Made by a program: the position numbers and the translations under genes. The notes under the pieces are model-generated. The model did not search any database. It was not told the origin of the DNA and was given only the letters and a program-made list of their open reading frames with translations. A DNA stretch of 64,000 nucleotides from Ehretia macrophylla. Lineage: Eukaryota; Streptophyta; Magnoliopsida; Boraginales; Ehretiaceae. The stretch's first letter is position 1, and each line of letters begins with the position of its first letter. Of this stretch, positions 16,358-62,000 are shown piece by piece. The DNA is taken from assembly GCA_037974665.1 (NCBI GenBank), contig CM075768.1:12019001-12083000 (forward strand). Reading direction: 5' to 3'.

Positions 16358-18986
16358 TTTTTCATACTCTGCCTCAGATTTAGAATATACAAGAATATCG
16401 TCAATAAAGATAACCACAAATTGGTCCAAATAAGGACGGAATACCCTCTGCATCAAATCCATGAATGCGGCAGAAGCATTAGTTAAACCAAATGACAGAA
16501 CAACAAATTCATAATGACCATAGCGAGTTCTGAAAGCAGTTTTAAGAACATCATATTTCTTAATCCTCAACTGATAATAGCCCTGCCTCAAATCGAATTT
16601 AAAAAATACCCTGGCGCCTTGCAACTGGTCAAATAACTCTTTAATTAAAGGCAAATGATATTTTTTTTTGATAGTCACCTGATTGAGACCCCGATAGTCG
16701 ATACATAAGCGAATAGATCCGTCTTTCTTCTTAACGAATAGATTGGTGCACCCCAATGTGAAGAACTCGGCTAAATGAATCCCTTCTCAAGTAAGCCCTG
16801 TAATTGAACTTTCCACTCCTGCAATTCAGGTGAAGCCATTCCATACAGAGTCCCCGGTAATAAGTCAATCATGAACTCTATCTCTCTATCAGACGGTAAA
16901 CCAGACAATTCCTTAGGAAAAACCTCCAGAAACTCTCTCATAATAGGTGCATCATTCAATTTCAACTGGTCACCAGGTTGATTAATTAAATATGCAAGAT
17001 AAGCCTCACAATCCTTGCTCAACAGTTTAGATGCTCTAATGGAAGAAATGATAGGATTTCCAGTTGATTTTCTACTTCTAACAAGTTCAATTACAAGTTG
17101 GTCGGGCATTTCTAATCTCACAATCTTCTTTCTACAATCAAGTTGTGCATAATATATCCCTAACCCTTCAAAGTCATTGAAGGGTAAAATAATCAAATCA
17201 GCAGGAAATACATGACCCTCAATAAAAATATTACATGTTTTGCAAATAGACTTAGTAACAAACTTCGGACCCATAGGTGTATAAACCACAATCTCATGCA
17301 ACAGTTTAACATGTTTCAGTTTAGCATTTTGTGCACAAGTAGGAGTAATAAATGAATGAGTAGCTTCAGAGTCAATTAAAACCTTAACTGATTGATCATT
17401 AAGGAGAAAAGTACCTTCTACCACAGCAGTCGTATCCGGAAGCTCCTCAGCATCCAAAGCAAATACTCGAGCTTGACCCTGTGGTGCTGGTACTGTAGTT
17501 GGTGCCCTGGTCTAAGAATTCTGAGCCGATGTCTGACCCCTAATGTTCTTAAATTTCAGACAATCTTTCACTCTATGCTGGTCACTCCCGCAGCCTATAC
17601 ACTTGTTATGTTTCCTCCAGCAAACCTCATCAGTATGACCCTGACGTTGACAGAAGCTGCACTGCTGGTGACGTCTTAGAGCAGTGCCTCCTGAAGGATC
17701 TCTATAAGAAGAAGTAGCTGAACTACCCTATTGTGAACGAGTTGGCGCTGGACGAGATTGATTCTGGCTCTGACTCTGTACTGGTCGTGCCTGTGACTGA
17801 GTAGGCCCTGTATAGCTTCGAGTTTGCCTCAGCTGTTGACTCTGACCCACTGAAACAGTTTGCCTCTGAAATCCCTAACTCTGAGTCTGGTGTGGCCGTT
17901 TACTAGGATGGCTCGGTTCTTCAAATAAGTCCGCTTTGCGTTTCTCATACTTGGCGGCTATTCTTACAGCTGCTGCATAGGAGGGATAGTCTTGAGTGGA
18001 CAGATTCAAAGAAATATCAGGCCTCAGTCCCATTATAAATTTCTGGATTCTCTTGCTTTCTGGCTGAACTAGAGCAGGCACATAACGGGACAGACGAGTG
18101 AATACAGCATCATATTGATCGACGGTTATGTTACTTTGTTTCAAATTGATGAATTCCTGCTCACGCCTTTCAATAGCCGTCTCGGTGATGTACTTCTCTC
18201 GAAATTCTCTCACAAACTCATCCTAAGTCCAAGGTACAACCTCCATCTCCCACCTAGATTTAATAGTGTGCCACCATTTCTCGGCATCTCCCTCAAGCAA
18301 AAATTCAGCACATGCCACCCGCCGCGCATCAGTGTACTCGAGACCGGTAAGAATATTTTCTACCTTATTCAACCACCGTTCGGCCTGCATATCATTTGGT
18401 TCCCCAAAGAAACTGGATGGCCCATGGTGTAAGAATTTTTACAAGTAGTTACCTCCACTGCCCTCGGCCCCTGCTTGGCCTTGAACTAGATTGCCCACTG
18501 GGGCATCCCTCCCTATCTTTAAAGTACCAGAGCAATCTGCCCGATAGCGGCAGTCAACTGTGCATTAATTGCCCGCTGATCAACCTCTTCATCTCCAACA
18601 TTCTGATTTCTGTTTTGTCGACGAGGCCCCATCTCAAGCAACTAGAATGCAAAGTGTTATGATTTGTATATATGTACCTTGCAAGTAAAGCACATAAAAA
18701 GAAGTTCAAATGAATCCACATAAAGTCACATAAGTAAGATCATATGAATATTCATATTCAAGAAATACATATAAGTCACTTGATCATACTTTTCATTCTA
18801 CAGTTTTCACATACAAACATTAACCCTTAAAGACCTTTCGCATTCTATTTCCATGCTAGCATGTTCATTAACAATTCAAATTTCACTTAGCTAATCAAAG
18901 AATCACTAATTCATGCAACCATGCAATCACATAATAGACCTCTACCCATAGACCGAGAAACCTATCCCGGCTCATGCATTCTAATA
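16358..18986 (-). pseudogene. gypsy gag, protease and partial reverse transcriptase (broken)
   Basis: Minus-strand parts run from right to left. Gag is at about 18213-17875 (RLSRYVPALVQPESKRIQKF). Two CCHC knuckles are at about 17660-17565 (CSFCQRQGHTDEVC and CIGCGSDQHRVKDC). Protease with a VLIDSEATHSF stretch is at about 17400. Reverse transcriptase is at 16756-16358, with [17 protein letters not shown] and the catalytic FIDDIL. Neither RNase H nor integrase follows. The region is broken in several places. Confidence 0.85.
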
Positions 18987-19611: not shown

Positions 19612-22358
19612 TGTCATGCACCAACTCGACCCCTCTTATAATTAGTCAGGACGCAATGGAATTTCGGCAGTACAACGACAGTAAATAGGATACCGAGGCT
19701 CTAAACCAACCTCAATATAACATCATACATCAACTCCACAAACTATACCACAAACAACTCCTCAATAAAACAACACACACATCATAACCATATTATACAA
19801 TAAACATTCCTTGTTATACGCCTCCGTTCCAACATAATACATGAACCTTAATATACATTGCCAAAATATTTTGATACCAACCTAGCAACCTAAACAAGAC
19901 AAAGGAAAGACTACCAAGATAGCATCAACTAATTCATTATCTTCTCAACATCTTTTACATTATGAACTACAAAGCATATAAAAGTCGACTAAGTTAATTT
20001 ACAAGATAATAAAACATGTACGACATCACGAATAAGACTCTGGAACATAGGACTCATCCACGTAAGGTGCATTTTCCACATTCTCCTCTACAGGAGGCAC
20101 GTACCCGTAATCCTGTGAAGGTACACCTGTATGCATGCAATAATAGAGAGTGAGCTTATATAAAATAGCCTAGCGAGGATCCGATAGATCTCGAGCAAGG
20201 TCTACTAAACTCCTTGGAATAATCCTTTGAGTCAGTAAACACACAATGAACATCAATAATTATTATAAATGCAACAATAGTAATAACTGTAAACACACAA
20301 TAAGGATACGATACATTTGCTGATGAAGCCCCATACACCAATTCCATGCTCAACAACTCCTCCAAACTCAATGACACAATCCTGAGGTACCTTGACCTAG
20401 ACCCACACCCCATGGCCTCTCCGCCCATGCGAGATAGAGAGTAGCCATGATAACTGTGCCCGCAACCCAGGATGCCTCCCGAGGTGACACAACATTATCA
20501 AAGCTCACAACAATGAGACTCAACATAAATAAACCGAGAGATCAGCAACAAAAGTGCCCGATTCCCGTAATCAATAATCAATCAATAATCTGGGAGATCA
20601 GCAACAAAAATGCCCGATTCCCGTGCTCAATAATCAATCAATAATTTGGGAGATCAGCAACAAAAGTGCCCGATTCCTGTACTCAATAATAATCAATAAT
20701 CTGGGAGATCAGCAACAAAAGTGCCCGATTCCCGTGCTCAATAATCAATCAATAATCTGGGAGATCAGCAACAAAAGTGCCCGATTCCCGTACTCAATAA
20801 TAATCAATAATCTGGGAGATCAGCAACAAAAGTGCCCGATTCCCGTACTCAATAATAATCAATAATCTGGGAGATCAGCAACAAAAGTGCCCGATTCCCG
20901 TACTCAATAATAATCAATATAACATCAATATTTAATTAAACAACAAACAACTAAGTTAGATGACAAAGTAGGCCATCCAACTTAACATGCATGAAACACG
21001 TAATCTAACCCTAGTCTAACCATTAACAACTCACAATTCAATCACTCAAACACCACCCAATCATCTAAAGGCTCAATTCAACAATTTAAAGAAAGACAAT
21101 CTAAACTTCAAATAATCATATCTTACATTCTACTAATCCAAACAACTCCAAATCAGTTTCAAACTCTCACCCAATCAATCAACTACATTAGCCCCCTCGG
21201 AAACCAACCAAAACACATCCAAATCATGCTCAACAACCCTAAAACCCTAGTGTGTCATGGCTGAAATTTCCGGATTTTGGCACGGACATCACAATCAAAA
21301 ATTCGGCATTACAACGGCGCTACCACGTAATTATCAATCTTTTATAAATCGACGGCAGTCGATTCCGATCAACACAACTCAAAATATTCAACATTTAACA
21401 AATTAATCAACTTTAAATACCCGAAAAATAATAAATATGCTACATCCGTTCAAATCTCGTAGTATTGCATATAAATGATCCCTAGCATGCATGGAGCAAT
21501 AATATAACATCAGATTCACATTCAAACGGTTCAATAATTAATTATACGCAAAAACATAAAAATGACATTTTGAGATCTATAATTTTTCTCTCACCTTTGA
21601 TCCGAAGTAAAGCTAGGAATGCGTGCAATAGGTGCCCAACAAGCGGAATCCAGCCCAGTTTGAAAAGATTCGGACTTTAAATGAGTTTTCTAAGGCAAAA
21701 TTACTTTGAAAATAAGTTGAATAAAATCTCTTTTTTTCCTAAGCTTTCACGGCTGCAATGTATGTGTTTTTGTGGTGTTTTCTTTGTTTTTAGTGTGTGT
21801 AGAGATTTATATGCGTAAGTCAACAAAATGAAAAAAGTCAAAGTTGATACTTTAGTGTTTTTATTGTTTTCTTGACTTTAAATACATTTTATTGATCACC
21901 AAAGTTCAAAACAATTATTCAACACCCAAGATAGCTCAAGTAGGTTATTTTTAGGTGACAAGAAGTTTTACAATCAAACAATTTCACTCGAGTCGGCTTA
22001 AAACTCGATTTTCGCAAAAGTCAGTGTAAAAATCCTAATAAATTCTTAAGCCGATTTTAAAACCGTTTTCATCAAACACAGGTCTATTAAAGTTCGTGGA
22101 CTAGGTCTAGAAGGGTTAAAAAGACCATTTTCAAAATTATAGCGGACGTGTTTCGAAAATACTATTCACTAAAAATCGACGATAAAATTTCTGACTCCGT
22201 TTTTAATGAAAATTTCATGAATGCACATTTAGCATGTTCTAGGAGTATTGATATCAAAATTACCACATTCTAAGTCATATAGCACATAAACATATCAATT
22301 CACGTAAAACGAGAATAAACACGCAAAACGAGACAGGATAAAAAAGTGGGGTTTTACA
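19612..22358 (-). mobile_element. LTR-like insertion (probable solo LTR or non-autonomous element)
   Basis: A 2747-bp insert interrupts the gypsy LTR. On plus it runs TGTCATGCACC...GGTTTTACA and is flanked by the 5-bp duplication GTATG (19607-19611 and 22359-22363). TG...CA ends plus a 5-bp duplication are the marks of LTR integration. No gag or pol domain is present. A second TGTCATG-type end with similar neighbouring sequence (TTCGGCATTACAACG) occurs at about 21254, so a two-LTR non-autonomous structure is possible. It carries a 55/56-bp tandem array. Confidence 0.75.
20538..20925. repeat. minisatellite, seven 55/56-bp units
   Basis: Units start at 20538, 20594, 20650, 20705, 20761, 20816 and 20871 with GAGATCAGCAACAAAA. 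The units alternate between two end variants (TCAATAATCAATCAA and TCAATAATAATCAA), explaining the 55/56 periods. Open frames here are a by-product of the repeat. Confidence 0.92.
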
Positions 22359-25598: not shown

Positions 25599-28500
25599 AT
25601 GGCAAACAATACTACTTCTCATTTCTTTGAGGGTTGCTCCACTAATAGGCCTCAATTGTTTATAGGTATTAATTTCAATTATTGGAAGAACAAGATGGAG
25701 ACATACATACAAGCTATTGACTACGTTCTATGGTCATTGGTAGAAGATGGCCCTTATGTTCCAATGAAGGAGGTAGCGGTCAAAGATGCTTCAAGTTCAA
25801 GCTGTGTTGAGAAAGTCAAAACCATCAACGTACCCAGGGAAATGAGTGAGTTCAATGATCAAGACATTATCATGATTACCAAGAACTCAAGAGCCAAGAA
25901 TATCCACTATTATGCTCTAAATGAAACTGAGTATAGTCGTGTGAGTCAATGTGAAACCGCTTATAAGATTTGGGAGACGTTACACATGTCTTATCAAAGG
26001 ACGTCTCAAGTGAAGAATACCAAAATTGATCTTCATATCCATGAGTATGATTTGTTTCGTATGAAGGCTAAAGAATCACTAAGCGAAATGCATCAAAGAT
26101 TCTCCAAAATTGTAAACAACTTGAGTGCTATTGGACAGAAATATCCAAATGAAGAACTCAACCAAAAGATTCTCATGGCCCTTCCAAAATAATACAAACC
26201 AAAGATGACATTAATTAGAGAATCAACCGATCTCTCCAAGTTAAAGGTGCATGAGCTCATCTGCAACCTTGAGACGGAGGAACTTATATTGAATCAAGAG
26301 AAGAAACGAGATGAAGAAGAAAAGAAGACAAAGAAATCACTTGTTCTCATTGCTCAATCTCAATCAAGTGATGAAGACAAAGAGGATAGTGATCTTGATG
26401 AGCTTGCACTCCTTGCAAAGAATTTTAAGAAATTCTTGAAATACAAAAAGATAAATAAAGGAGAGCCCATCAACAACAAAGTCAAGAGAAGATTCAAATA
26501 GAAGATGAACAAGACCAAAGAAGAGATTAAGTGCTTCAATTGTGACAAGTCGAGACACATCCAAGCAAAGTGTCCAAAATTGATCAAAGAGAAACAAAAA
26601 GCAATGAAGGCTTATGTTTAAAATGATGTATCAACCGATGGTGAAAGTGGAAGCGAAACCGAAGTAGCTGACTTTGTTTGCTCTATGGCTAGAGATGATG
26701 AGGTAACTTATTCGTCTTGTTATAAATCTTCTTTTTCTAATGATGATGAATGCACTTTTGAGGAACTAATAAATGAATTTTCAAAACTACATAGCTTTCT
26801 CCTTGCACATTCAAAAGTAAAGAATCTTCAAAAAGAAAATGATGAACTTCAAAAAGAAATTAAAGAGCTTAGAGATAAGAATGATACTCTTACCAAAGAG
26901 ATTTGTTAGTACATCATTTAAAGATAAAAAATGAAGTAGAGATCAAATATTTTGAAAAACAAGTTCTTTATTTACAAAATAATCTTGCCAGATTTTCAAA
27001 GGGAACAAAATCCTTGGATGAAATCCTTGGCTCCCAAAAATTACCATTTGACAAAGGTGGGATTGACTATGAGTCATTTTCTAAGCCAAAGTTCTCAAAA
27101 ACTACCTTTGTGAAAGCTTCTCAATCCTTAATTGTCCATCTACCAGTAAAAGAATCACAAAAAGTACAAATTGACAAAATAGGAATTGCCTATAAGCCAC
27201 ATCCAAAAAGTTTTCAAAATTATTTTGTCAAAGCATCATCCTCTTGGCATGTAGCCTCAACATCAAGAGGATCATTTAAGAGATGTACTTATTATGAGAA
27301 GATTGGTCATAATGCATCACAATGTAGATTTAGAAACATGGTGAGAAGAGATTCTCACATTCCTTTATGGATTAGACCCAAATGGGTTGTTAGATGTGTT
27401 AGGACTTCGTACTAACACAAAACAACCCAATAGAATCTTGGGGACCAAAATGAACTTGTTTTGTTTGTATGAATGATAGGTTGCCCTAAAGGTGAAGTAT
27501 GAAGATACTTGGGGTTATTGATAGTGGGTGCTCAAGGAACATGACGGGTGATGTCTCTTTCTTCTATGTGATTGACAAAGACTTTAAAGGTAAAGTTAGC
27601 TATGGAGGAAATGAATAAGGCAAAGTCATTGGTAAGGGTAGCATAGGAGATATAAACTCTCTTTCCATTCATGATGTCTTGTATATTAAAGGTCTTAGAC
27701 ATAATTTGCTATGTGTGAGCCAATTTTGTGATAGTGGATTTAGAGTTGAATTTTTATCTACTTGTTGCAAGGTGTATGATAAAGATGATAAAGTGTTGTT
27801 TGTTGGTAATAGATGCGATAATGTGTATGTGATTAATTTTCATGAATTAAAGTGTCAAAATGTGACATGCTTAGTTACCATTAATGAAGACTCATGGCTA
27901 TGGCATAGGAGACTTGGTCATGCTAGCATGGATTTACTTACTAAACTTTCTAGAAAAGAACTTGTCATAGGTCTTATTAAGACTAGATTTCAAAAAGACC
28001 ATTTATGTGATGCATGCCAATTTGGAAAACAACACAAAACATCTTTCAAAACAATTAGCAAGGTAACCACATCAAGAGCTTTACAAAAATTACATATAGA
28101 TCTTTTTGGTCCAATGGATATGGCAAACCTATGTGGATCTAGATATGTCTATGTTATCATAAATAATTACACTAGATTTACATGGCTGAAACCCCTTGCA
28201 CATAAAAATAATGCCTTCAATGAATTTTCTAAACTTTGTAATAAGGTGCAAAATGAGAAAGACTATTATATAAATTGTATTCATAGTGACCAAGGCACTG
28301 AATTTATAAATGCATCTTTTACAGACTATTGTGAAGTACATGGCATTGAACATAATTTTTCGGCTCTTAGAACTCCTCAAAAAATAGGGTAGTGGAAAGG
28401 AAGAATCGGACTTTACAAAAATGCCAAGAACAATGTTGAAAGAAAACAACTTGCCAACATATTTTTGGGGTGAAGCCATAAATACCGCATGTTATGTGTT

Positions 28501-36250: not shown

Positions 36251-38236
36251 TTTCAGACTTAAAGAATTAATGCTTAAATATGTGCTAGATTTTAATTTTG
36301 CTAAATTAGGTGCTTAAACAAGATTAGCCCGACAAGTTTTAAAAGCTAGTTTAAAGAACAATAGCCAATTTGAAAACATTCTTGAGAGCGAAGAGAAAAT
36401 TTTTGGAAAGCGTAAACATTTTGAATAGCACTAATGTGCTTTCAAGATTGGATTTGAGGTATACCATATAATGAGGGTTGTTACCCCTTATTTTGCCACG
36501 TTTCCTTCCTTGTAACTCCCTCTTCAATCTTCATCTCTTTTGGTTCTTGAATATATTGAGCTTCTGATGAGATCAATTTGCTTTATACATGAATTTGCAA
36601 CTCAAAGGATTCACAAGTTTGATCATCATATCATCTTCATTTCTCTAAGTTTTGATTTGTGATCTTCAAGATCTTCACTCTTTTAGCTTTTCAAGACTTC
36701 AAATGATCTCCCAATCTATGACTAATTTGAAACATACAAAACTTGTACAAGCCATGATTAGTTAACATTGATCGTATGACTAAGATTTGGTTATCATCAA
36801 AATATGAGATCAAAGCCTTCAGGTTAACAAACTCTCCATTTTTTATGATGACAAAATCTTACATATTTAAGCACATTCTTATTTGAAATCAAGGCATGAG
36901 TAAGATAGTCATAAAGATAAGTAAGATCCCCCTTACTATATGAATATCAAAGTAAGTAAGCTCCCCCTTACTATATGTATATTAAAGTTTCCTCCCATAA
37001 TGATTTATGTATTTTTTTCCCTCTTTGATATCATCAAAATGAGTTAGACATGAGAAACAATGATAGAGAGACAAGTAATAGGAGCATAGAAAGGCATAAA
37101 GAGTCAAGTAAAAGCATAAAGATAAAGAGAACACAATCACTGCATTAAATCTAGCAAAAGTTTGCCATTAAAACAAAGTATGCAAGTGAAAAGGGTTTGA
37201 CTAGCAAGAGTCTTAAAGAACTATCGAAAGAAATTAGAGAATAACACAATGGCCTAGCTTGATCCATTATTATCTCCATCGTCATCATTACCACCATTTT
37301 CATCATCATTGTCATTTTCATCATCACCGTTATCTTCATCATCACTTGGGGGTTTACCATCTTTCCATTGACTCAGAGGCACTAGAGGTTCATAGCCATT
37401 CTCAGTAACTCAACTAGTATATATGTCCAACCATGTGTGAATGTTTTTTTACTTGAAGTTGTAAAGGAGCGAGGCTTTTGTTAAGGTTTCTTTTTACATG
37501 GCGTACCATGTCTCAAACTTGTTCATCAAACTTTATTTTCCAGCTTATTTGCATACGAGATATAGCTTGAAGAATCTTGTCAGTATCTGACATAGCAGTT
37601 GAAGAACTCAGAGCTTGAGGAACTTGGTGACTTGACCTAATACCTTGTCGGTGATACTTATCTGATATAATAGTCTCTCTCGAAACAAGACGAGAAGCAT
37701 GAAAATTCTACGCATTTACCTCATCCACGTCTATTGAGTCAGGGGCCATTTTACCAAAATTAGCTCTTCCTCATCAATGACTAGCTTTTCTTTTCTTTAT
37801 TCTTTAGTACGTGTTCCCTCTATTCGAGCCCTCTTCTTGTTGAAGCACTAAGAGTGGTACTGTTGTCTCCCAAGATTACAGTTTTCTCATTAGGAGGTAA
37901 TTCCAATACTTCAGATAGTTCTAAGATTTTGCCCTTAGGAATAAACAAACACATCTGTCTCATAGTAGTTGTATCAAACTTCAACATTGGATTGAATGGC
38001 TTAGAATGCTCGCTTTCTAAAGGCACCTTGTGATCTTTAAAGATTACAGTCAAAGCCATGCCATATGCTAATTCCATTATTTGCTTGTGAATATGCCACA
38101 TATGAGATAGTATTAAATATGGCACAATATGGGATCCTACCATCATTAGAAACCCGATGCATAATCAAATCTTGAACAATGTGAAGCAATAGTCTATTGC
38201 ATCCTATGACATCTCTATCATGAGAGGTGATACCAA

Positions 38237-39125
38237 TGTAGAAGCCAAAATCTACAATTACGAATTCAGAGCCACTAGCAACCTATAAAGACAGAAAATG
38301 AGGAAAGCTGCGTGAGTCTTGGGACACCGGTGTGGTGCCAGCCAAAGACACTCCGGCACTCAAGTTAGTAGGTTACCGGGTAAGATAGAAAATGAAGAAA
38401 GTAGGATGGGTAAGGCAGAGGCTACCGTAATTCTGGCATCGTTTTAGGGAGTGTAGGCCGTGAAGATATGGAAGAGAGAAGGGAAGTAAGACTAGTAAGG
38501 CTAGTACTCGATGCTTTCTCCTTGTGTAGGCGTGGCCTACTTATAGGTGTGGTCAAGCCAAGAGTCACGAACCCTTAGGACTTGTACTCTTGGTAGACTA
38601 CCTAATCACTTACCGCGTAAGATTGAGGTAGTCTCTATCTCGAATCCTTCGTCGATTATCCGCTTCTCATAGGCTGGGTGAACGCGATAGGTCTGGAGTC
38701 GCTCATCCCTTAAGACTTGCAACTTGAGTAGACTATCTCAATGAAGTAATTACTTATCCCGTAGGATAGGCCTTCATCCAAACTTGTCGTTCATCACGTT
38801 CTATAGTAGTCTAGTCCCTTAAGGTATCCTCTGTGGTCGCTTATCTTTTACGGTAGGCTAGTCCCATAGGACTCTCTCTTAGCTGTTAATCCGTTTGCAC
38901 CCGGTAAGGCCATGGTTGCGCTCGAGTTCGTTGTCGGGCACCTACATGAGATAATCCATTCTTTGGGCCTAGCGTAGAGCTAGGGGCCTCCGCGTGGGCT
39001 CCTTCAGTAGTAGGTTGTGACTTATAGTGCTATATGCAGGCCTTGGCCCAAGTATTAGCGTCGTTTGGGGCTAAGAGAACCATCGTGATTGGACCGAGGG
39101 TCCAAGCCCATTTTTTGCATTAACA
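38237..39125 (-). repeat. 3' LTR of the gag-protease element
   Basis: On minus, TGTTAATGCAAAAAATGGG...TTCTACA. It pairs with 44830-45718 at the same length. Confidence 0.9.
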
Positions 39126-39229
39126 GTTTGTCCCCCCACTCCCTAAGTCGAAGAGTCTTCGAGTTAGGGAGTAAATTGCTCGTAAAGTGAGCTCGACTTG
39201 TACTCCTTGGGAAAAATTTGCAACTCACC

Positions 39230-40790
39230 ACGCGAGTGGTTAACAGCCTACCAAATGTTGGTGGGTAATTTCACATCTTACTGTAGTTTTTTTTTTTGAA
39301 TTGCGCGGCCGATTATTTCTATAATGGTGCTTCGTATCCCACTGTCACATTCAAAAGTTGCACAGCCTACCACGTTCAGTTTTACAGCTCGCAACCTACC
39401 ATTTTTCCTTGAAGTCGCGTAATCTACCATATCTTTTCTTGGATGGGTCCGTAGCCTACCAGAATTGTGCATTCAACGCCGCAGCCTACCATTTACTCAC
39501 TTGCTACTTACAACTTAAAATTGTTTTCACAGCTCGCAGCCTACCGTTGTTTGTCGTAACGTGGCAGACTACTATTTCTCCTTGTTTTTTCTTCCACAAC
39601 GAGTTTTGCAAAAGTTGTGAAGTCTTAGGAAGGAAAGATAAATGTGCGCCTTCTTATCGTAAATTGAGGAGTTGACTAGAGCCTACCATTGGTAGGCTCC
39701 AAAAATGTGCTTACCTCTAAATCGTACACTTCCTTGAGTTGGAGACGGAGCCTACCATGCTAGTAGGACTCAAAAAGTGTGCACCAAAGTGTTGTAACCT
39801 TTTTTCCCCTCTCTACACATAGTAGGGTGAATTGGTGTTGTAGCTCTCATTCATAGCCACATAGACTACCATTGTAACTTTTTCATCCATAGCTGCGTGC
39901 ACTACCATAGAAATCCATTTCTTCATCATAGTCAAGTGGACTACAACGACCATTCTTACTCGTATTCAAACAGGCTACTACAACAATCTCTTACTCGTAG
40001 CCAAGTAGGCTACCATTTGTTATTGTTGTATCCTTGCAGCCTACCGTGGTTGGTAGGACCTAACATGAGGTATTTTAAAACCAAGTGATTGCCTACTATA
40101 GTTGGTAGGCTCTTACTAACATGTAAGAGTCCTTAGGACAGTGCATATGTGCTTAGTGCGATAAATAATAAATTGAGCTTACAAGTACCCTTAGAATGGT
40201 AGGGTGACTCCTCTAGAAACTAGTGATATTAAGTTGACCCTTTTAGTTGAGCCAAACATACGGTAAGATAATCATTTTGGTGAAGCCTATCGTAGGCATT
40301 GACTTTAACGTATCGTAGGATGACCCTTTTGATGGGCTAAAAGTATAAGATCCTCTTATTAGGATAGAGGCATTTACTACCTTTTGTTATAGGTATAACA
40401 TGTTAGAGACTTTGTTTTGTCCTCTTCTGGCTAATTGGATAAGTTTAGAAGGTTTGCGACCCTTCTTAAATAAGCAAGGCAAGTTGGGGACTCCATGGAT
40501 CCATTCTTGACAATTTGAGTATGTTTTGAGGGTCCGCGACTCCTCTTTGATGAATATAGTAGGCTAAGGAATTCGTGAGTCCGTTTCTAACCATTTGAGT
40601 ATGTTTGGAGGGCCTAGGACTTCTCTCTTTTTTGTAAGCTATATTGCTCTTGATCGGACGGTCGTCGTCTTTCCCTATTTAGGAGGGCAAACTACCATAG
40701 GGGTAGTTTGGATCTTAATCGGTTAGCCCCAAGAGTGGCCTACCATTGCGTAGACTTAGGGTAGGGTAGCTTTGCTTTTAGAGGCCACGC
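39230..40790. repeat. zone of dispersed CCTACCAT words
   Basis: GCCTACCA, CTACCAT and TGGTAGGCT words recur irregularly every 25-70 bases from 39240 to about 40110 and more rarely beyond. They share the core of the regular array that follows, so this may be a much older, decayed part of the same array. No frame carries a domain. Confidence 0.6.
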
Positions 40791-42615
40791 CACTTGTAGG
40801 TCGATAATCTTAGAGCTTACCGTAATAGGTGGGTCCCCCTAGGATACTAAGTAGCGGTGTAATGATATCGGAACCTACCGTAGTAGGTAGATCCCCTTAG
40901 GATCCTAGGCTGATGGGTTGATAATTTCGGAGCCTACCGTAATAGGATGCAGTATACAAGAGGACAAGTTGGTACATTCCACATTTCAAATTCTACCTTA
41001 GTAGGTTGCTCCCTTTGGGATTTTAAGATGGTTGGTTAGTCATTCCGGACCCTACCATAGTAGATTGCGCCCTTTAGGCATCTTAGTTGGTAGACGGATC
41101 ACTTTGGACCCTACCATAGTAGGTTGTGCCTTTTTGGCATCTTAGTTGCTAGATGGGTCCCTTCGGACCCTACCGTAGTAGGTTGCGCCTTTTAGGCGTC
41201 TTAGTTGATAGGTAGATTACTCGGACCCTACCATAGTAGGTTGCGCCATTTAGGCGTCTTAGTTGGCAGGTGGGTCACTTGGACCCTACCATAGTAGGCT
41301 GCGCCCCTTAGGCGTATTAGTTGGTAGGTGGGTCACTTAGACCTTACCATAGTAGCTTGCGCCATTTAGGCGTCTTGTTTGGTAGGTAGGTCACTTGGAC
41401 CCTACCATAGTAGGCTGCAACCATTAGGCGTCTTGTTTGGTAGGTAGGTCACTTGGACCCTACTATAGTAGGTTCCGCTGTTTAGGCGTCTTAGTTGGTA
41501 GATGGGTCACTTGGACCCTACCTTAGTAGGTTGCGCCCCTTAAGCGTTTCAGTTGGTAGGTGGGTCACTTAGACCCTACCATAGTAGGTTGTGCCATTTA
41601 GGCGTCTTGTTTAGTAAGTAGGTCACTTGGACCCTACTATAGTAGGTTGCGCTGTTTAGGCGTCTTAGTTGGTAGGTAGGTCACTTGGACCTTACCATAA
41701 TAGGTTGCACCGTTTAGGCATCTTAGTTGATAGGTAGGTTATTCGGACCCTACCATAGCAGGTTGCGCCTTTTTGGCATCTTAGTAGGTAGATGGGTCCC
41801 TTCGGACCCTACCATAGTAGGCTGCGCCGTTTAGGCGTCTTAGTTGATAGGTAGATTACTCGGACCCTACCATAGTAGGTTGCGCCATTTAGGCGTCTTA
41901 GTTGGCAGGTGGGTCACTTGGACCTTACCATAGTAGGCTGCGTCCCTTAGGCGTCTTAGTTGGTAGGTGGGTCACTTAGACCCTACCATAGTAGCTTGTG
42001 CCATTTAGGCGTCTTGTTTGGTAGGTAGGTCACTTGGACCCTACCATAGTAGGCTGCGACCCTTAGGCGTCTTGTTTGGTAGGTAGGTCACTTGGACCCT
42101 ACTATAATAGGTTGCGCCGTTTTGGCGTTTTGTTTGGTAGGTAGGTCACTTGGACCCTACCATAATAGGTTGCGTCGTTTAGGTGTCTTGTTTGGTAGGT
42201 AGGTCACTTGGACCCTACCATAATAGGTTGCGTCGTTTAGGCGTCTTAGTTGGTAAGCAGGTCACTTGGACCCTACCATAGTAGGTTGCGCCGTTTAGGC
42301 GTCTTAGCTGCTAAGTAGGTTACTCGGACCATACCATAGTAGGTTGTGCCATTTAGGCGTCTTAGTTGGTAGGTGGGTCACTTGGACCCTACCATAGTAG
42401 GTTGCGCCATTTAGGCGTCTTGTTTAGTAGGTTGGTCACTTGGACCCTACCATAGTAGGTTGCGCCATTTAGGCGTCTTAGTTGGTAGGTAGGTTACTCG
42501 GACCCTACCATAGTAGGTTGCGCCATTTAGGCGTCTTATTTGATAGGTGGGTCACTTAGAACCTACCATAGTAAGCTGCGCCCCTTAGGCATCTTGTTTG
42601 GTAAATGGGTCATTT
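40790..42615. repeat. 58-bp tandem array, about 31 copies
   Basis: The CCTACC core recurs at a period of 58-59, for example at 40816, 40874, 40933, 40992 and 41051. Further along, GACCCTACC/GACCTTACC starts at 41282, 41340, 41398, 41456 and 41514. Each unit has CCTACCATAGTAGG (arms CCTAC and GTAGG), a GCGCC..TTAGGCGTCTT part and GGTAGGTGGGTCACTTGG. Variants recur with an offset of 639 bases, showing a higher-order duplication. Tandem repeats in the 3' untranslated part of Tat-type elements are a known source of plant satellites. Confidence 0.93.
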
Positions 42616-42862
42616 CAAACATGCCTTCAGACCTCGGAATCTTAACTAGACAAATTATTCAATGAGTGGGCCGAAACACGTTGCCTTTTCATTTTGAGAA
42701 ACTAATTACAATGATTGCTCCTGGGCATGTCACCGATTGAGACTGATTCTACTAACCCCTTGGAGGGGAGACTAACTTAAGACTAATGACCCCCTAGAGG
42801 GGCTATTAACTAAAGGTCGCTAATGCTGAAAGTAATGTTTGTTAAGGCGAATGGTATTTCGA

Positions 42863-44740
42863 CTATTGTGACTGAGATATGCTTGCGATAGGTTGCTTGA
42901 ATTGAGCTTGCACGGTAGCTTGTTCCAGTTGGTATACGACATTGTAATCTGGTTGTCTTTGGGTGGTTCTCCGTTGCGCTCTTATTTCACCAATCCCTCG
43001 CTGGGTAGGGAACTTGATCACTTGGTGGTAAGTGGATGAAACAGCTTTCATATCATGGATCCATGGTCTTCCCAAAATGATGTTGTAGGGCGATGGAAAA
43101 TCTATCACCGAGAATTGAGTCAAGAGGTTTACGTTGTGTGCATCAATAGGAATGATAATCTCCCCAATGGTGCTCTTGCTCTCGCTGCTAAATCCTACTA
43201 GTATGGTTGTGGAGCGCATGATGCAAGATTCATCAATTCCTATTTCTTTAAGGGTTTTTAACATGAGTACATTGGCAGCGCCACCGTTGTCAACCTGTAT
43301 TTTCCTAACCAACCGGTTGGCCACCATCAACTCAATGACTAGGGCATTGTAATGCGGGTCATCTTGGTAGTTTGTTCCCTGGTTGGAGAACGTGATGACT
43401 TCTCCTTGTTCGGACTCCCTTAATCGTTGGGGCTAAAGTCAGATTTGAACGCACGTCCGGTGCGTATATTTGTTGCCAAGTGAGCAGTCCCACCAACCCT
43501 TGATCTGCCAGTGATGACATTGACGGTATGCTCATATCTTGGTGATCTTGGCGAAGTGGTATCCTGAGTCGCATGCTCTCCTTCTCCTTGGGCCATCATT
43601 CTTCTCCTGTGGATTTGTTCTTGTTCAAGTAATCGTCTATTATCTTGTGAGTGGTTGCTCATTTGCTCATCCGTAGTGTAAGTCTCATATCTTCTATGAT
43701 GTTGATCAGATGTTGTAGTCCGTCTATGATCTCGCCTATCGTAGCGCGGTGAGGAGGGATGGTATTTGGCTCTATCTTCTTCCCACTTGATCTGGGCCCA
43801 CGCCTTGGCGAGGACATCCTCCATAGTCTTGCATGGGTATTTGGTTAACTCTTTATACAAGTCCGACTCGTGAAGTAGACCCTTGCGGAAGGCAGAGATA
43901 GCTGTGGCCGTGTCATAATTCAGGATGGACACCCTTTCCTTGTTAAATCTGCCCGTAGGGATTCTTCCCTCCTTTGCACAATCAAGTAGAGGTTGTCTGA
44001 CTTTTTTTTAACTTCCTGCTGCTCGCGAATTGCTCCACGAACATGTCTATCAACTGGGCAAAAGAGGAGATACAGTTATTCGGCAAGCTCGTGTACCATT
44101 GTAAGGCGGGTCCTACTAAGCTGGAGCCGAAGCCCTTGCACATGCAGGCTTTTCTCGAATCTCGCAGAATGGCTACTGTGAGCATTCTTTGCTTGTACTG
44201 CATTATGTGGTCATCGGGATCGGTGGTCCCATGGTAGGGCCTCATGTTTGGAAAGCTAAACTTTGCCGGCATCTCTACCATGGCGATGGTGTCAACAAAC
44301 GACGAGTCAACAAAACTATTTACCGCACTCTTCTTGATGGGGACAGGTACCCCAGGGATCCTTTGGATTAAGGATTCAATTTCTTGGAATCGACTAAGGA
44401 TGTCCTGGTTCGGTACTCTTTCATCTGTTGACTGAGTCGGTAGTCGCTCAGTAGCGACGGTAGTTTGGAGGTAGACCCCACTCCCAGGCGTCTGTTGTGG
44501 TGTAGACCCAAGGGATTGCATGGGTACCATCGACTGTCCATGGGCGATTGACTTCCCGAGGATAGATGGGGTAGCGGACGCTGTGAGGGTCTTGACCCTT
44601 TCCTCTAGCACAATATTTTCTTGGCATAAGACAGTGTTTTTCGCCTCAAGTTCTTTCAGCTTGTCCTTGCAAGCTTCCATCTCGGCCATCAAAGCATCCA
44701 TCTGTGCTTGGAGATCGTTTTGAGTACTCGTTTCAGCCAT
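42863..44740 (-). pseudogene. gag and aspartic-protease region of the non-autonomous gypsy element
   Basis: On minus, gag starts at 44740 (MAETSTQNDLQAQMDALMAE) with a coiled-coil N-terminus of about 60 residues. The retrotransposon gag core follows (YHGTTDPDDHIMQYKQRM, then GPALQWYTSLPNNCISSFAQL, here cut to its key words GPALQWY and NCISSF), and a basic R/H/D-rich linker at about 43700-43600. The protease-like part at 43330-42863 has NIILGRPWIHDMKAVSSTYH, typical of Tat elements. A few breaks are present. No RT follows. Confidence 0.82.
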
Positions 44741-44829
44741 CGTTTTCGTCGCAAGTAGTCGTACTCGAGGGTTTCGTAGCCTTCTGTTCAGGTAACTAAA
44801 TTGTTAAGGCCCCACGGTGGGTGCCAAAT

Positions 44830-45718
44830 TATAGATGCCAAAATCTACAATTACGAATTCAGAGCCACTAGCAACCTGCAAAGATAGAAAATGAGGAAAG
44901 CTGCGTGAGTCTTGGGACACCTGTATGGTGCCGGTCAAAGACACTCTGACGCTCAAGTCAGTAGGTTACCGGGTAAGATAGAAAATGAAGAAAGTAAGAT
45001 GGGTAAGGCAAAGGCTACCATAATTCTGGCATCGTTTTAGGGAGTGTAGGCCGTGAAGATGTGGAAGGGAGAAGGGAAGTAAGGCTAGTAAGGCTAGTAC
45101 TCGATGCCTTCTCCTTGTGTAAGCGTGGCCTACTTATAGGTGTGGTCAAGCCAAGAGTCACGGACCCTTAGGACTTGTACTCTCGGTAGACTACCTGATC
45201 GCTTACCGCGTAAGATTGAGGTAGTCTCTATCTCGAATCCTTCGTCGATTATCCGCTTCTTGTAGGCTGGGCAAACGCGATAGGTCTGGAGTCGATCATC
45301 CCCTAAGACTTGCAACTTGAGTAGACTACCTCAAGGAAGTAATTACTTATCCCGTAGGATAGGCCTTCATCCAAACTTGTTGTTCATCACGTTCTATAGT
45401 AGTCTAGTCCCTTAAGGTATCCTCTGTGGTCGCTTATCTGTTACGGTAGGCTAGTCCCATAGGACTCTCTCTTAGCTGTTAATCCGTTTGCACCCGGTGA
45501 GGCCATGGGTTGCGCTCAAGTCCGTCGTCAGGCACCTACATGAGATAATCCATTCTTTGGGCCTAGCGTAGAGCTAGGGGCCTCCGTGTGGACTCCTTCA
45601 GTAGTAAGCTGCGACTTATGGTGCTATATGCAGGCCTTGGCCCAAGTATTAACGTCGTTTGGGCTAAGAGAACCATTGTGATTGGACCGAGGGTCCAAGC
45701 CCATTTTTTGCATTAACA
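44830..45718 (-). repeat. 5' LTR of the gag-protease element
   Basis: 889 bp, the partner of 38237-39125. Its inner edge adjoins the primer-site region at 44808-44829. Confidence 0.9.
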
Positions 45719-46100
45719 ACCAGGCATGCAATTATCAACAACTTCCCAAATCATAGCTACCATTGCATTTCTATCATCGATATGCATATCAGGATATCCT
45801 TTTGTACAATAATATCATTGACTAACTACAAGAAATTGAAATAATGAACTTAGATAGCTCGTAGTGAGTATAATGTTCACTCCCCTTACTATTGACCTTA
45901 AGGTATTATGATTTCCTTCATACAAGTTAATGTATAATTCACGGACCAAACTCTCATATGTTTCACATGCAATGAACATAAAATTATCAAGATCTTGAAA
46001 TTTCAAGCATTCAACTACATCGGTACTTTCAAATGAGGATTCAACAATAGGGTTATTTGCAATCACTTTGCTCCGGAGGATCAAGAGAAGACGATTCGGT

Positions 46101-53000: not shown

Positions 53001-56000
53001 GTTCTTCCTCTCAACGACTTCATTATGTTGTGGTGAGTAAGGAAGGGTGAGTGGACGTAATATGCCTTGAACTCAAGTGAGTTGAATTCTCCCCCTTTAT
53101 CAGATATCATCGCCTTTATTGTATATCTACTTTGTTTCTCCATAAGTGCCTTGAATTTCTTGAAGGCATTGAAGACCTCTGATTTTTCTTTTAGAAAATA
53201 CACCTATGTCTTTCTACTGAAATCATCAATGAAAAGAAAGAAGTACATATTTTTGCCAAATAATGTTGGGTTAATTAGGCCACACACATCGGTGTGAACT
53301 AACTCCAATGGCCTCCTTGTTCTTGATAATGCCTCTTATAGGAAGCTTTTTCAGAATTGCTTACTAAGTAAACATCCTACACATAGTTGATTGGAATGAT
53401 TGATGAAAGGTAGACCCTTAACCATATTCTTTTTTGATAGTAACTTTAGCCCTCCAAAATTGAGATGGCCAAACCTCAAGTTCCATAGCCATGAGGTGTC
53501 TTCCAAGCATGCTTTTAAGCATTTTAGGCTATCATTTTGAATATTCAATAGAAACATTCTATTATTGTTCATGGGCACTTGGGCAATTAAGTTTTTCTCT
53601 ATGATCTCTTAGGAAGAGACTATGATTTTTCATGTGGATATCATAGCCCTTTTCTAAGAGATGGCCCATGCTCAAGATATTGGCCTTCATGTCAGACACG
53701 TAGTATATATTAGAGATAAATTGGTGTCTTCTATCTTTTAGGCGGATGAGTATTTTTCCTTTGCCCTTGACAGGAGTCTTAGATAGATCTCTAAACGTTA
53801 CATTTTCGTTTACCGATTCATCAAGCTTGACAAAAATTTTCTTGTTGTCGCACATGTAGTTGCTTGCACCTATGTCGAGGTACCATGTATGTTGTTCTCT
53901 GTCTTCGTATCCCTTGTATGCGATCAAGAGGGTGGAGTCTACCTCATCATTCTTTTGTTCAGTGTAATTGGATCTCTCCTCTACATTCTTGGTGGAAGTT
54001 TGGTATTCTGAGGCATAGTGACTGAATTTGTGACAATTGTAACATTCAACTTTGGACTTTATATACCTTGGTCGTTGAGCTCCTCCTCTTCCATGTCCAC
54101 TTGATGATCTATTTTTATCCTCTTTTTTGTTGTTGGGCATGTTGTATCCTCATCTTCCTCGGCCACGTCCACGACCATGACCACGTCCACGTCCACGTCC
54201 ACGTCCTTGTCCACGTCCTCGTCCTTTTTGGCTTCTTTCATTGCCAAAGTCTTTAAATTCTTTATTAAGCTTGAGTTTGGCTTGAAGGACTTGATCTAGT
54301 GATTCTTTATTCCTCTTCTTGATTTTTTTCTTCATGTACTTGTAGCTTACTAGTGAGTTTATAACGGTCATTTTCTCTAGATCATTAGATTCTTCAATTG
54401 TTACTACCACGTTATCAAATTTTGAATCTAATGATCAGAGAATCTTTCAATGTCACTCATGCTTTCACCATTTGTTTGTAGTTGATTAACTATTGATTGA
54501 ACTCTTGAGACATAATCTGAGATTGACTCAGATTCTTTCATTTGAAAATTTTAAAACTCGACTCTAAGAGTTTGAAGACGAATTTTTCTTACCTTGTCAA
54601 TTCCTTGGTATGCATTTTCAAGAATCTCCTATGCTTTCTTAGTTGTTGAAGCTTGGGCAATCTTCTGAAACGTGGCATCATCTACGACTTGTTGGATGAT
54701 TGAAAGAGCCTTTTGATCTTTCATCTTAAAATCCTTCAAATCCTTCTTTTGTGCTTGAGTAAGAGTGGCCTCATCTTCAAGTACCTCGTAGCCTTCTTCA
54801 ATAACATTTCATATATCTTGGCCACCAAGATATGTCTTCATTTAGATGTTCCACCTTCTGTAGTTGTCGTTGGAGAGCCATGAAAATGGGAATGCTAGAC
54901 TTGATGTAGCCATAACCTAGCTCTTCATACTACTTTGTTGAATCCAAATACAATATAATAACCCTTTATTATAATATGTGCTTGTACAATGATTACAAGG
55001 AACAAACTTATTATATTATTTCTTGCAACTAGTAGTTACGGGAAGACACAATATGACTTTTATACAAGACAACCAATGTATATTTTATTAGCACTAACTC
55101 AACTCTCACAATATTTAATTCTTACAACTCAGCTCTTCTTACTTCTACAACACACACCATATACCCAAACTCTCTTTGCGAAGAACATCTATCTTTCTTC
55201 TCTGCTCATGACTCCACACATCACAATGAAGCACAAGGCCCATATTTATACTTGAGCTTAAGTCGGTTGGTGAGCAAAATATCAAGAGTCACCAACTTTA
55301 GAAGACTCTAGTGCATATTAAACTAATGAATAATGCTCAATGATTTTTTGTCCACCAAACAACTTTTTTCTTTTCTAATGAAGGCTCTAGAGAAACCGAG
55401 AGAGTCTTTGTTGACTCTTTCAACAATAATGGTTACGGTAAATGACTACAACAATTTTTCACTAACAAGGGCGTCGTTTTGAGATTTGTCTTCAACCACC
55501 AAAACATAGACACAACTTGGACGTACGTTAGGTTTCCAAGGATGCACTTTGTTTCCACCCAATATGCTTTTCTAGGATAGTATAGAAATATGCTTGCAAC
55601 AGTCTATCACATGGACATTATAATGTTGTGTACCATTACATAGACTTTTCTTCCTACTAAAAATGAGATGAATACTCATAAGTTTAGCGTTCTTCATCTG
55701 GAATCTTTTAGTCATTTGTTCAATGTATTTTAGTTGTGATGACCATAATGTTGGATTAAGACTTGAATTCTAAATCTAATCAAATACTTGGAAGATAAAT
55801 AGAATCCAATAAGAATCAAAGTACTCTAGAATATAGGGATCTTAATCTTAGTACGATTAACACTTGTATGACTTTCTAGCTTATGACACACCACAAGGTC
55901 GGTTTACTACACTTAACTATACTAGAATCCCATGTCACGTGCCACTAAGTTGGTATGTAGAGTTATGATTGAATTCTTTGAATAATAGAGAAAAATACTT

Positions 56001-59000: not shown

Positions 59001-62000
59001 GGTTTGACCAGACTTTTGACCTAATTGACGAGACTCTGACTGGATATTGATCGATTGTGCAAAGTGTTTCTATATATTTTTTGACATTCTGAATTCAAAT
59101 TTGAACTCATTTGTGTCAAATTCAATTTACGATGTTGAGTTTTTGAATTTAAAAGGTGTTGACTAAAAAAACAGAAAAGGGGACGAGTCCAAAATTTGAA
59201 GGTTTAATGCTTGGTATTTCTTGCTAAAGGAAGAATTTGTCGGATTATGACTCAAATTCCAAGCCTAACAAAATACCGAAAACAAATAGAAGTCCAATAA
59301 GAGTTAAAAAGTCTAGAATCTAGGAATTCTAATTATAGTATGATTGGCACTTGTATCCTATAAATAGGACATTCCAATTTATATTTAATTGTCATGCACC
59401 ACAACGTGGGTTTACCGCACTTGAATATACCAGAACCACATGTTATATGCCACTAGCTCGGTGTGTAAAGTTATGGTTGTATTCTCTAAGTAAGGAAGAA
59501 AATATTATGTGAACGTAAACCAAATAATACTGAACCACGTTAAAAAACATGGTTGTCTTGCGTATGTATGATCTTTCCAAAACACAACCTTTTGGTCTTG
59601 TATACGAACTATTTCCAAGGCAAGATTTGATGGGCTGAAAAATATAGGCTCTCTCTCTAGTATATGTGATAGGAAGCTCTCTCACTTGAATGGTTCTCTC
59701 ATATTTGAGAAGCATGAGGTGTATATATACAGTTATATATAGAGAGAGAGGATAAAGATGATGACAATGATCACAATTCAATATCCTATTTCTTTGAACT
59801 TTTGGATTTATTAAGGATGAGCTAGACTATTCCTATCTGACAAAAAAAAAAAAGACTATTCCTAAACCTTCAGAACCGTTGTTTTTTTTTATCTTCAAGT
59901 CGTTCTAGATTACCCAACATCAACGCGATACAACATATTTATATGTAATCCGCGAGAATCGAGCTTACAACCTCTCACATACAAAGCGAGTAACTTACCA
60001 ATGGACCAAAGCCCTAGTGGCTAATATGTAATCAATTTAGGTAATAACCCATGGAAGACTACTGCCTAAATCTATGGCTTAATTTACATATGTTCATACT
60101 CTATGCATTAATACAATACATGCTAAGAAGGCAACGAGGATCAGTTTGAGTTAGATAGTATATGATTGCGGTTTTCATAAAGCAATCGTGATGGTTTATT
60201 GTATCTTGAAACAGAACGCAGATTTCTCAATGTAGCAAGGAAGCGACCATATTCAAGACTTGAATTACCTTCCGACATATTAGCCCCTGAATCAGGTATC
60301 AATCTTGTTCTTACATTATATCATTTTCCATCATCATTACAACTTTGGAAATTTTCAACTGTTTGGCAAAAATGCTACAAATAATTATTTATTCTATCTA
60401 ATAAACTATTAATAAAAGGAAGTCTAAAATCAACTTTTAAAACTAGCAATTTGAATTATATTTTGGAGGATTATAGCATTCATTTAATCATTGTTATCAG
60501 TGGTAATGAGCAAGTAGAAAGTTAATTGTTCTTTCAAAAATTTTTGAATGTTGGAAATACAAGAAACTTGCTTTTCAAATGTAATATGTCATTTTTCTTC
60601 CCACGGTCAGCTAATTAATGTGGAACAATTAATTTGTTTTTTGAGGAGTTTTATAGGATTTAATATCATTCAAGGATAAAAGATTTGAAAATTCATCGTA
60701 TAGTCAGTGACAACCATTACAAACAAGACAAAGGGTGATTTTCGATCAAAGTGAATCCACTAGTCTAAAACTATATAGTAAACTCCTCTCGAGTATGAGC
60801 TGCATCACATTGTACAAAGTAAAAAGCACTTTTTACACAACTCATCTCAATTTATTCGTATATATTCAATAATTATTGTTATGTTGAAGACTTCTATTTT
60901 GCCAATAAGTACCACACTCACTCAACTATATTTATAGTTATGAATGAATATGGTAATTTTCGTCACTCGGATTTCATTTATATGCAAAGAAATCTTTTAT
61001 TCGTCAGATAAAAAAAGTCCACTGTAGATCTCTCCCTTGGATATCAATCTAGTTTGAGAAGTAATAGGAGTCATCCCAAGCCTGCTGCATACAACACTAA
61101 AAATTCTAAGGAGTGATCTTCATCATGCGAGTGATGCAACTTTTCTGTTCAGTTTTTATATGTTAGATTTCTCATCCATGCTACTATCTAGTGGAATGAT
61201 GCGTGTGTCTATGTGTAAAAACTCATACATGTTATTAATAACTTGATAGACATTTCAGTTTTTCTTTTCATCCTATAACAGATATTTATAAGTTGAAGGT
61301 GACACGCGGGAAAACATATCTCTTACGCATCATCAATGCTGCAGTTAGTACTAATCAATTTTTCAAGGTAGCAAATCACCATATGACAGTTGTTGCAGCC
61401 GATGGCTTTTATACCAACCCATATCCAACAGATGTAATTGTACTCGCCCCTGGTCAGGCCATTGACGTGCTTTTGAAAGCAAATCAACCACCTGGGCTCT
61501 ATTATATGGCATCAATTGTCTATCGCACTTCTAACTTTACACAAAATAATTTCATACCAGCAACTGGTATCATTGTCTATGATGATGCCACAACATCAGC
61601 CCCAAAAATGACAAATTTGCCAGAAGTTTTCGACACAGCGACGGCTCACAAATTCTTAAGCAGTTTGACAGGTCTTGTAACAGGGCCATTTTGGGTACCT
61701 GTGCCATCTGAAGTCGATGAGCATATGTTTATAACTCTTGGGCTAGGAATTGTTCCATGTGAGAAGAATCGCAAGACACCTTGTCAAAGCCTATTCGGTC
61801 AACGAATAGCTGGATCTTTAAACAATGTATCATTTGTATTACCAACTAGGTTGTCAATACTAGAAGCATTTTACAACAAAGTGGATGGAATCTACACAAC
61901 TGATTTTCCGAATGAACCACCTGTCAAGTTTGATTATGTAAATGAGAGTTATACATTTGATGACATACTCGTATGGACTGAAAAATCAACAAAAGTGAAG

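Follow-up and report, generated by a model that had tools for sequence, protein, structure and literature searches.

The question raised by this locus is how a retrotransposon that carries gag and protease, and no further part of pol, came to be and what moves it. The window, that is, the whole stretch analysed here, is 64,000 nucleotides of the Ehretia macrophylla genome (assembly GCA_037974665.1, contig CM075768.1, positions 12,019,001 to 12,083,000 of the forward strand). Its positions 38237-45718 are confirmed as a minus-strand Ty3/gypsy element with long terminal repeats (LTRs), and our searches support its membership of a defined pol-less family. We consider it highly probable that the element is one copy of a semi-autonomous lineage of the Tat group, in which pol was lost by deletion and complete elements supply the pol enzymes. 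From the sequences, we infer that a complete partner mobilises the window family.

A family of elements without pol

Searches of the genome (1.58 Gb) scored the best candidates only (40 of 960 for the LTR and 150 of 4429 for the protease), so that all copy numbers given here are lower bounds. The 40 scored LTR matches, which include the window’s own two, are 87–100% identical to the window LTR. Thirteen other LTR loci were read, and 11 of them hold gag and protease without pol, the remaining two being an LTR alone and an LTR with a 3' piece. The layout of the 11 is a primer binding site (PBS) and gag, the protease, a 250-bp spacer, and a 58-bp tandem array (L022 has a gap in gag), and for nine both LTRs lie inside the stretches read. 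Pol is thus absent from 12 of 12 window-family gag-protease copies read at length, as well as from both copies read of a sister family (L033/L034 and L035/L036), which has the same seam behind the protease. A defined non-autonomous family had been proposed from the sequence alone, and these reads support the proposal. Target-site duplications flank all ten assessable LTR pairs of 12 examined (five exact, five with one mismatch); the count leaves out L019/L020, where the 3' LTR runs into another PBS-gag, and L031/L032, a complete element with a mismatched 5' LTR end. L021 and L023–L027 were left out of counts as having no gag-protease of their own or repeating another stretch, L022 was excluded from codon-position site counts for its gag deletion, and L017/L018 were excluded from the TRF and frame runs.

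The features of the window element are as follows (LTR, long terminal repeat; ORF, open reading frame; UTR, untranslated region).

44830..45718, minus strand: 5' LTR, TGTTAATGC...CATCTATA (from the LTR pair alignment and the LTR search)
44808..44829, minus strand: PBS, ATTTGGCACCCACCGTGGGGCC, directly after the 5' LTR
43982..44740, minus strand: first part of gag, counted from the initial ATG of ORF 43982-44803 (Retrotrans_gag, E 5e-5)
43420..44007, minus strand: gag, second part, in another frame in the window copy
42863..43432, minus strand: aspartic protease region, including the family’s stop codon
42826..42865, minus strand: apparent pol-tail scrap, out of frame, aligned to the last ~13 codons of L031 pol (via copies L010 and L013 and the multiple alignment) and taken as the 3' edge of the deleted part of pol
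42612..42862, minus strand: post-protease spacer, diagnostic of the pol-less lineage
40993..42603, minus strand: 58-bp tandem array in the 3' UTR, 27.7 copies, score 2050
40813..40946, minus strand: short run of diverged 58-bp units
39126..40992, minus strand: remaining 3' UTR
39126..39149, minus strand: polypurine tract (PPT) region, GACTTAGGGAGTGGGGGGACAAAC
38237..39125, minus strand: 3' LTR, which ends CTTCTACA
45719..45723: target-site duplication CTGGT (element strand), 5' LTR side
38232..38236: target-site duplication TTGGT (element strand), 3' LTR side, matching CTGGT at four of five positions

The two LTRs, described by the sequence-only reading as equal, are so in length (889 bp each) and not in sequence, being 94.7% identical with 47 differences over 886 aligned bp, 42 of them transitions. 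Primer site, gag, and protease are present as that reading had it, with gag-protease of the window copy broken by frame changes into three ORFs. The sister family and L031 carry the PBS stretch too, the copies differing from one another at one to a few bases. Gag scores 23.8 bits against Pfam Retrotrans_gag, just below the cut-off of 24.1, and the window protease itself has no Pfam match; four of 29 aligned protease sequences match each of three aspartyl-protease models at E <= 0.05. A structure model of the protease, of low confidence (pLDDT 53.6), has retropepsin-type proteases (Ddi1-type and retroviral) as its top PDB matches (best E 0.0094). The PDB sequence search with the protease returned two viral capsid or spike proteins at chance level, and these were rejected. 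From the protease stop (42863) to the 3' LTR (39126) is 3.74 kb, in agreement with the ~3.7 kb without RT (reverse transcriptase), RNase H, and integrase read from the sequence alone, and the array fills 43% of it, where about half had been estimated. Six pieces of L031 pol (tblastn, 1e-4) found no match in the window element, in 20 window-family stretches, or in four sister-family stretches.

The seam recurs well beyond these copies. A query of 351 bases covering the protease end and spacer gave 118 candidates, of which 40, window included, were scored, all at least 91% identical. The protease search listed 93 matches at 65% identity or more (counted by eye), the longest open frame among them being 643 aa; the listed frames above 650 aa are all 55–60% identical, and their alignment stops at residue 181–182, the family stop being at 189. 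We hand-picked 35 further protease loci across these tiers from the listed matches, taking 901 bases around the protease end of each. Twenty-five have the pol-less spacer without RT, eight have RT without the spacer, and two have neither. RT and integrase in all other copies, the outcome named by the sequence-only reading as speaking against a family, did not occur. In the 25, RT is absent from the ~750 bases behind the protease, and the spacer is matched in part only at L041, L055, and L064. The pol-less lineage is deep, because the 25 include loci at only 62–65% protease identity to the window, and the eight RT-bearing loci (57–61%) are members of the complete group. When protease DNA is placed in an unrooted tree, a split with a support of 100 sets 14 pol-less sequences apart from nine RT-bearing ones; three additional sequences on its pol-less side were later found to be pol-less, and the remaining two are a pair with neither mark. 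The C-terminal end of the family’s protease is absent from the seven read of 30 protease relatives from other plants, and a plasmid search with gag gave no match.

Window-family LTR distances range from 0.056 to 0.114 (ten pairs), corresponding to insertion ages of ~2–4 million years, and 0.4 million years for one sister copy; the ages are based on an assumed rate of 1.3e-8 and are only relative. Eight of nine other copies read that far have an extra 1.0–1.5 kb ahead of the 3' LTR, and the window copy is shorter. TRF, run on ten elements, reported a 59-bp array in nine and a 45-bp array in five, both ahead of the 58-bp array. Some copies have unusual surroundings. L019/L020 reads as LTR, internal region, and LTR, then directly another PBS-gag, and is probably a tandem element from LTR recombination. 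A stretch of 3.3 kb lies between LTR and PBS-gag at L028:1015-4345, probably a nested insertion. Two pairs of loci ~0.3 Mb apart have the same or nearly the same match scores (G000:C4:24.15 and 24.43 Mb; C18:27.29 and 27.63 Mb) and represent segmental duplication or an assembly duplicate.

The complete relative and the lost part of pol

The full-length Tat element with matching LTR ends that had been sought as a partner was found in L031/L032, and its PBS and PPT match as well. It has a single 1813-aa frame with gag, RVT_1, RT_RNaseH, RVT_3, an integrase zinc finger, and rve (the integrase core). An additional, archaeal-type RNase H marks most Tat elements (PMC10508981); L031 shows this mark in the order RT_RNaseH, RVT_3, rve, and the window element itself is without pol. 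Tandem repeats of the Tat type are present in the 3' UTR, with 58-bp units in the window and 45-, 59-, and 41-bp arrays in relatives. L031 and the window family share the same PBS and near-identical LTR ends and PPT, a comparison with one complete element, the only one read through its LTRs. Its LTRs are 99.8% identical over 574 bp; the first ~62 bp of the 5' LTR do not match, so this end is damaged or displaced. Behind pol, the 58-bp unit is repeated 8.9 times in L031, and a long 3' region leads from there to the LTR. Because the same array stands behind an intact pol, it did not replace RT and integrase, contrary to the sequence-only reading, and belongs to the 3' UTR. On the minus strand of L032:294-2340, between the array and the 3' LTR, lie antisense ORFs of 169, 303, and 267 aa, positioned as described for Retand elements.

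How pol was lost can be read, with some caution, from the seam. By blastn, the seam is similar to the end of L031 pol in L013 (68% over 119 bp, E 1e-6) and in L010 (65%, E 2e-4). In a multiple alignment, the window copy, L009, L010, and L013, together with sister copies L033 and L035, align in another frame to the final ~13 codons of L031 pol and its stop. These weak but consistent alignments apparently mark a scrap of the pol tail left out of frame behind the protease stop. Since the post-protease sequence aligns to the pol end, a single internal deletion of ~3.2 kb is the simplest way to account for the loss of pol. Such a deletion, as read from alignments in which the tail homology is short, would have taken out RT, both RNase H domains, and integrase, and would have joined the protease-RT linker to the pol end in another frame, thereby creating the family’s stop codon at the seam. 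Seven linker residues of L031 are missing from the window copy, L033, and L035 alike. Splicing was considered as the origin of the loss and set aside, as the junction inspected by eye has no clear pair of donor and acceptor.

An element of this kind could still move. Its RNA would retain the LTR ends, PBS, and PPT of the complete relative, features that are seen in the copies, and through these the RT and integrase of the L031 group may copy and insert it. Its Gag and protease most likely help in building particles and, judging from selection, may enlarge the pool of these. The enzymes RT, RNase H, and integrase would most likely come from co-expressed complete L031-type elements packaged together with it, as the mosaics described below support. 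On this reading, the 58-bp array is the inherited 3' UTR array, longer in the window than in the two complete-group elements read, and the lineage appears to have kept protease coding function while splitting into families, a statistical statement made between two families.

A third gag-protease group without pol (L087, L088, and L094; C1:81.23 Mb, C5:30.57 Mb) has proteases placed between the pol-less and RT-bearing groups in the tree. In L087 and L088/L094, both the spacer and RT are missing and tandem repeats follow (units of 40 bp in L088); the seven-residue linker stretch seems, by eye, to be kept. In L088/L094, PPT and LTR follow within ~3.0 kb of the protease with no pol between; L087 is known from 901 bases only. 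This group probably lost pol separately and has its own seam, the alternative being a single loss after which the flank was replaced. A tentative extension, which we regard as doubtful, is that pol was lost more than once in one Tat group (in the window and sister lineage, and in L087 with L088/L094) and that pol-less elements are helpers rather than mere parasites, supplying an excess of Gag needed by the particles, after which shared particles would shuffle gag segments and 3' UTR arrays between partners. Such a supply would be called for, since in the complete element Gag and Pol come as a single chain of 1813 aa. In copia, it is a spliced gag-protease RNA that supplies the Gag excess.

Selection, exchange and competing explanations

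Whether gag and protease do anything for the lineage can be asked of the sister family. L033 has an open gag-protease frame of 612 aa, an LTR distance of 0.011, and an exact target duplication, and the frames of the two sister copies share their stop. Fixed protease differences between 12 window-family and two sister copies comprise 20 synonymous changes at 124 sites and 26 non-synonymous changes at 431 sites, a pN/pS of 0.374 (Fisher p 7e-4). Amino-acid changes are thus depleted in the comparison of the two families, and the protease most likely continued to function for some time in the lineage without pol. Omega for the non-mosaic part is 0.32–0.44 between the window family and the sister; values for the whole of gag-protease (0.17–0.23, 12 copies) were set aside, as the front half is mosaic. 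An unlikely alternative, which we nonetheless take seriously, is that gag and protease are passengers of a pure parasite, refreshed only by mosaic exchange with complete elements. The front half of sister gag, ~95% identical to the complete element, speaks for it. The protease, however, was not refreshed (47–81% between sister and L031 by 30-codon blocks) and still has a pN/pS of 0.37, and the shared stop of the two sister frames also counts against passengers.

Exchange with complete elements is visible in the sister family. Both sister copies resemble L031 over the stretch that begins near the LTR end and reaches gag codon ~270, with mostly 91–98% identity (~95%), as against ~80% to the window family. 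The rest of their gag-protease and spacer, in 100-column blocks, is 75–98% identical to the window family and 39–81% to L031. In four window-family and two sister copies, the maximal segment score was 167–177, compared with no more than 33 in 2000 label shuffles; the scored segment also includes LTR sequence, which is there only slightly L031-like. The sister family, on these comparisons, is a mosaic. This fits co-packaging with complete elements, and strand transfer between co-packaged RNAs is the simplest account, which would imply that both kinds of RNA were in the same particles. Gene conversion or ectopic recombination of chromosomal copies, rather than template switching, seems to us a distinctly unlikely source of the mosaics; it would be possible between repeats, and the mosaics would then have no word on a partner. 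Against it, both sister copies, on different contigs, show an exchanged block that extends from close to the LTR end into gag, as one multiplied recombinant RNA would give.

The array, too, points to exchange. A 300-bp piece of the window array has 244 matches, a figure that covers matches in any context, inside elements or not. Among the matches listed, the best elsewhere are 88–90% identical, and six lie 3.5–3.8 kb downstream of complete-group proteases. One of these six, L092/L093 (C6:36.65 Mb), is 71% identical to the window in the LTR, 78% in gag (94% to L031), and 88.6% in the array. This likeness suggests exchange with complete elements, as the mosaic does. Array copies number about 17–40 in the window family versus 8.9 in L031 and 13.6 in L093. 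The TRF consensus units of the window and L031 looked ~95% alike by eye; this comparison was dropped, and because single units average 77%, comparisons of segments were preferred to unit identity.

We hold it to be improbable that selection maintains the 58-bp array as a signal of structured RNA, for packaging for example. Its units do fold better than single-base shuffles (-14.2 vs -8.6 kcal/mol, 80 units), short inverted repeats occur in them, and array pieces are more alike than LTR or gag between the window and a complete-group element. Across 206 distinct units, however, three stems show no clear covariation, with paired fraction and double changes about as in shuffled columns; one stem is slightly above the shuffles, 24 of 500 of which reach its paired fraction. 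The sister family, moreover, has no match to the 58-bp array and carries arrays of 33, 42, and 45 bp instead. Finally, it is extremely improbable that the window copy was inserted as an ordinary Tat element and is now a mere remnant, its pol having disappeared by chance in the course of decay. Its gag-protease is indeed broken, and it is short of the 3' UTR stretch of other copies (1.0–1.5 kb in eight of nine). The same seam, however, recurs in 11 other window-family and two sister copies, at scattered sites that bear target duplications of their own, and also at 25 of the 35 further loci.

Several observations weigh against a semi-autonomous lineage served by complete partners. The searches scored best candidates only, as noted above. 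Gag-protease of the window family is broken by stops or frame changes in 11 of 11 copies, and likewise in L017, with seven stops. Median omega is 0.42 for pairs inside the window family and 0.6 for the two sister copies. Gag behind the mosaic block has a pN/pS of 0.433 (p 0.06), and the protease taken by codon position alone also gives p 0.06. The mosaics could also come from recombination between genomic copies. L092/L093 is known from its LTR, gag, and array only. Lastly, the complete elements share only 71–74% of the LTR and 55–61% of the protease, so that a partner nearer to the family could have died out or escaped the searches.

Around the element, minus-strand ORFs lie on both sides (window 37820-38282 and 45815-46099). 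The flanking ORFs 37823-38164 and 45818-46099 have no Pfam match, and the insertion may lie within a repeat or gene that is older. Elsewhere, the window holds a 55/111-bp tandem array (20538-20919, 95–97% match), copia-type pieces at 11607-14577, 27619-28392, and 53562-54149 (GAG-pre-integrase, integrase core, RVT_2, Pol_BBD), and a minus-strand gypsy protease piece (RVP_2) at 16382-17511 with a short RT similarity adjoining. The only likely host gene noted is a multicopper oxidase (laccase-like) exon at 61242-62270.

Relation to known semi-autonomous elements

Non-autonomous plant elements differ in how much coding sequence they keep and in how closely they resemble their partners. In TR-GAG elements, GAG is the only coding domain, unlike the window family with its protease region, which appears to be under selection. 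Retand partners have highly similar LTRs, unlike the 71–74% between window and complete LTRs.

The closest counterpart is RLG_Sabrina_SA of wheat, called semi-autonomous, which has GAG and protease without RT and integrase and is proposed as a Gag supplier; it is named together with RLG_WHAM and the autonomous RLG_Wilma, with LTR termini and PBS common to the complete family (PMC9744471). The window family is likewise Ty3/gypsy, with gag-protease kept, RT and integrase absent, and LTR ends and PBS (here also the PPT) in common with a complete element. An open gag-protease frame of that type survives in the sister copy (612 aa), and the 12 window-family copies read are broken. In contrast to RLG_Sabrina_SA, the window family can be aligned with its presumed partner over LTR and gag, the deletion of pol has left a visible scar, and there are 3' UTR tandem arrays and sister-family mosaics. 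In einkorn, RLG_Quinta is a non-autonomous, gag-bearing family proposed to be cross-mobilised by the complete RLG_Cereba, and its lineages recombine (PMC11302176); the present family resembles this pair in bearing gag without autonomy and in its signs of recombination among lineages. By analogy, the working that we propose for the window family would match the proposals for RLG_Sabrina_SA and RLG_Quinta (PMC9744471, PMC11302176).

Tat-group systems provide the second comparison. In Silene latifolia, Retand includes complete and non-autonomous elements in one family, the latter being LTRs with expanded tandem repeats between them (Kejnovsky 2006, as described in PMC12477314). The array is similarly more amplified in our pol-less family than in complete elements, and in contrast to non-autonomous Retand the window family keeps gag and protease. 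A survey of recently active Retand elements in 617 assemblies found tandem arrays between pol and the 3' LTR in about half, and counted ten of 63 clusters as defective (seven without GAG, two without GAG and protease, and one without RNase H and integrase); a GAG-protease-only cluster, as the window family would be, is not among the ten (PMC11963269). For Lathyrus sativus Ogre, tandem repeats lie behind gag-pol in the Tat-group 3' UTR, with strand transfer between co-packaged RNAs cited as a hypothesis for their source, and long satellites outside elements are shown for that species (PMC7004042); the 58-bp array is described here from inside elements.

The gag-protease semi-autonomous kind is thus already known in wheat from RLG_Sabrina_SA, and the window family adds to that kind. 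In the literature searched (titles, openings of abstracts, and passages, with most subscription literature outside the coverage), no description of a gag-protease-only Tat or Retand form with tandem repeats was recognised. A single genome here shows the seam of the deletion, complete relatives, continued selection on the protease, and segments that were exchanged. Two questions become testable by comparison. One is whether elements with gag and protease aid their partners or live at their expense, and the other is whether strand transfer between co-packaged RNAs is what spreads the tandem arrays in the 3' UTR of Tat elements.

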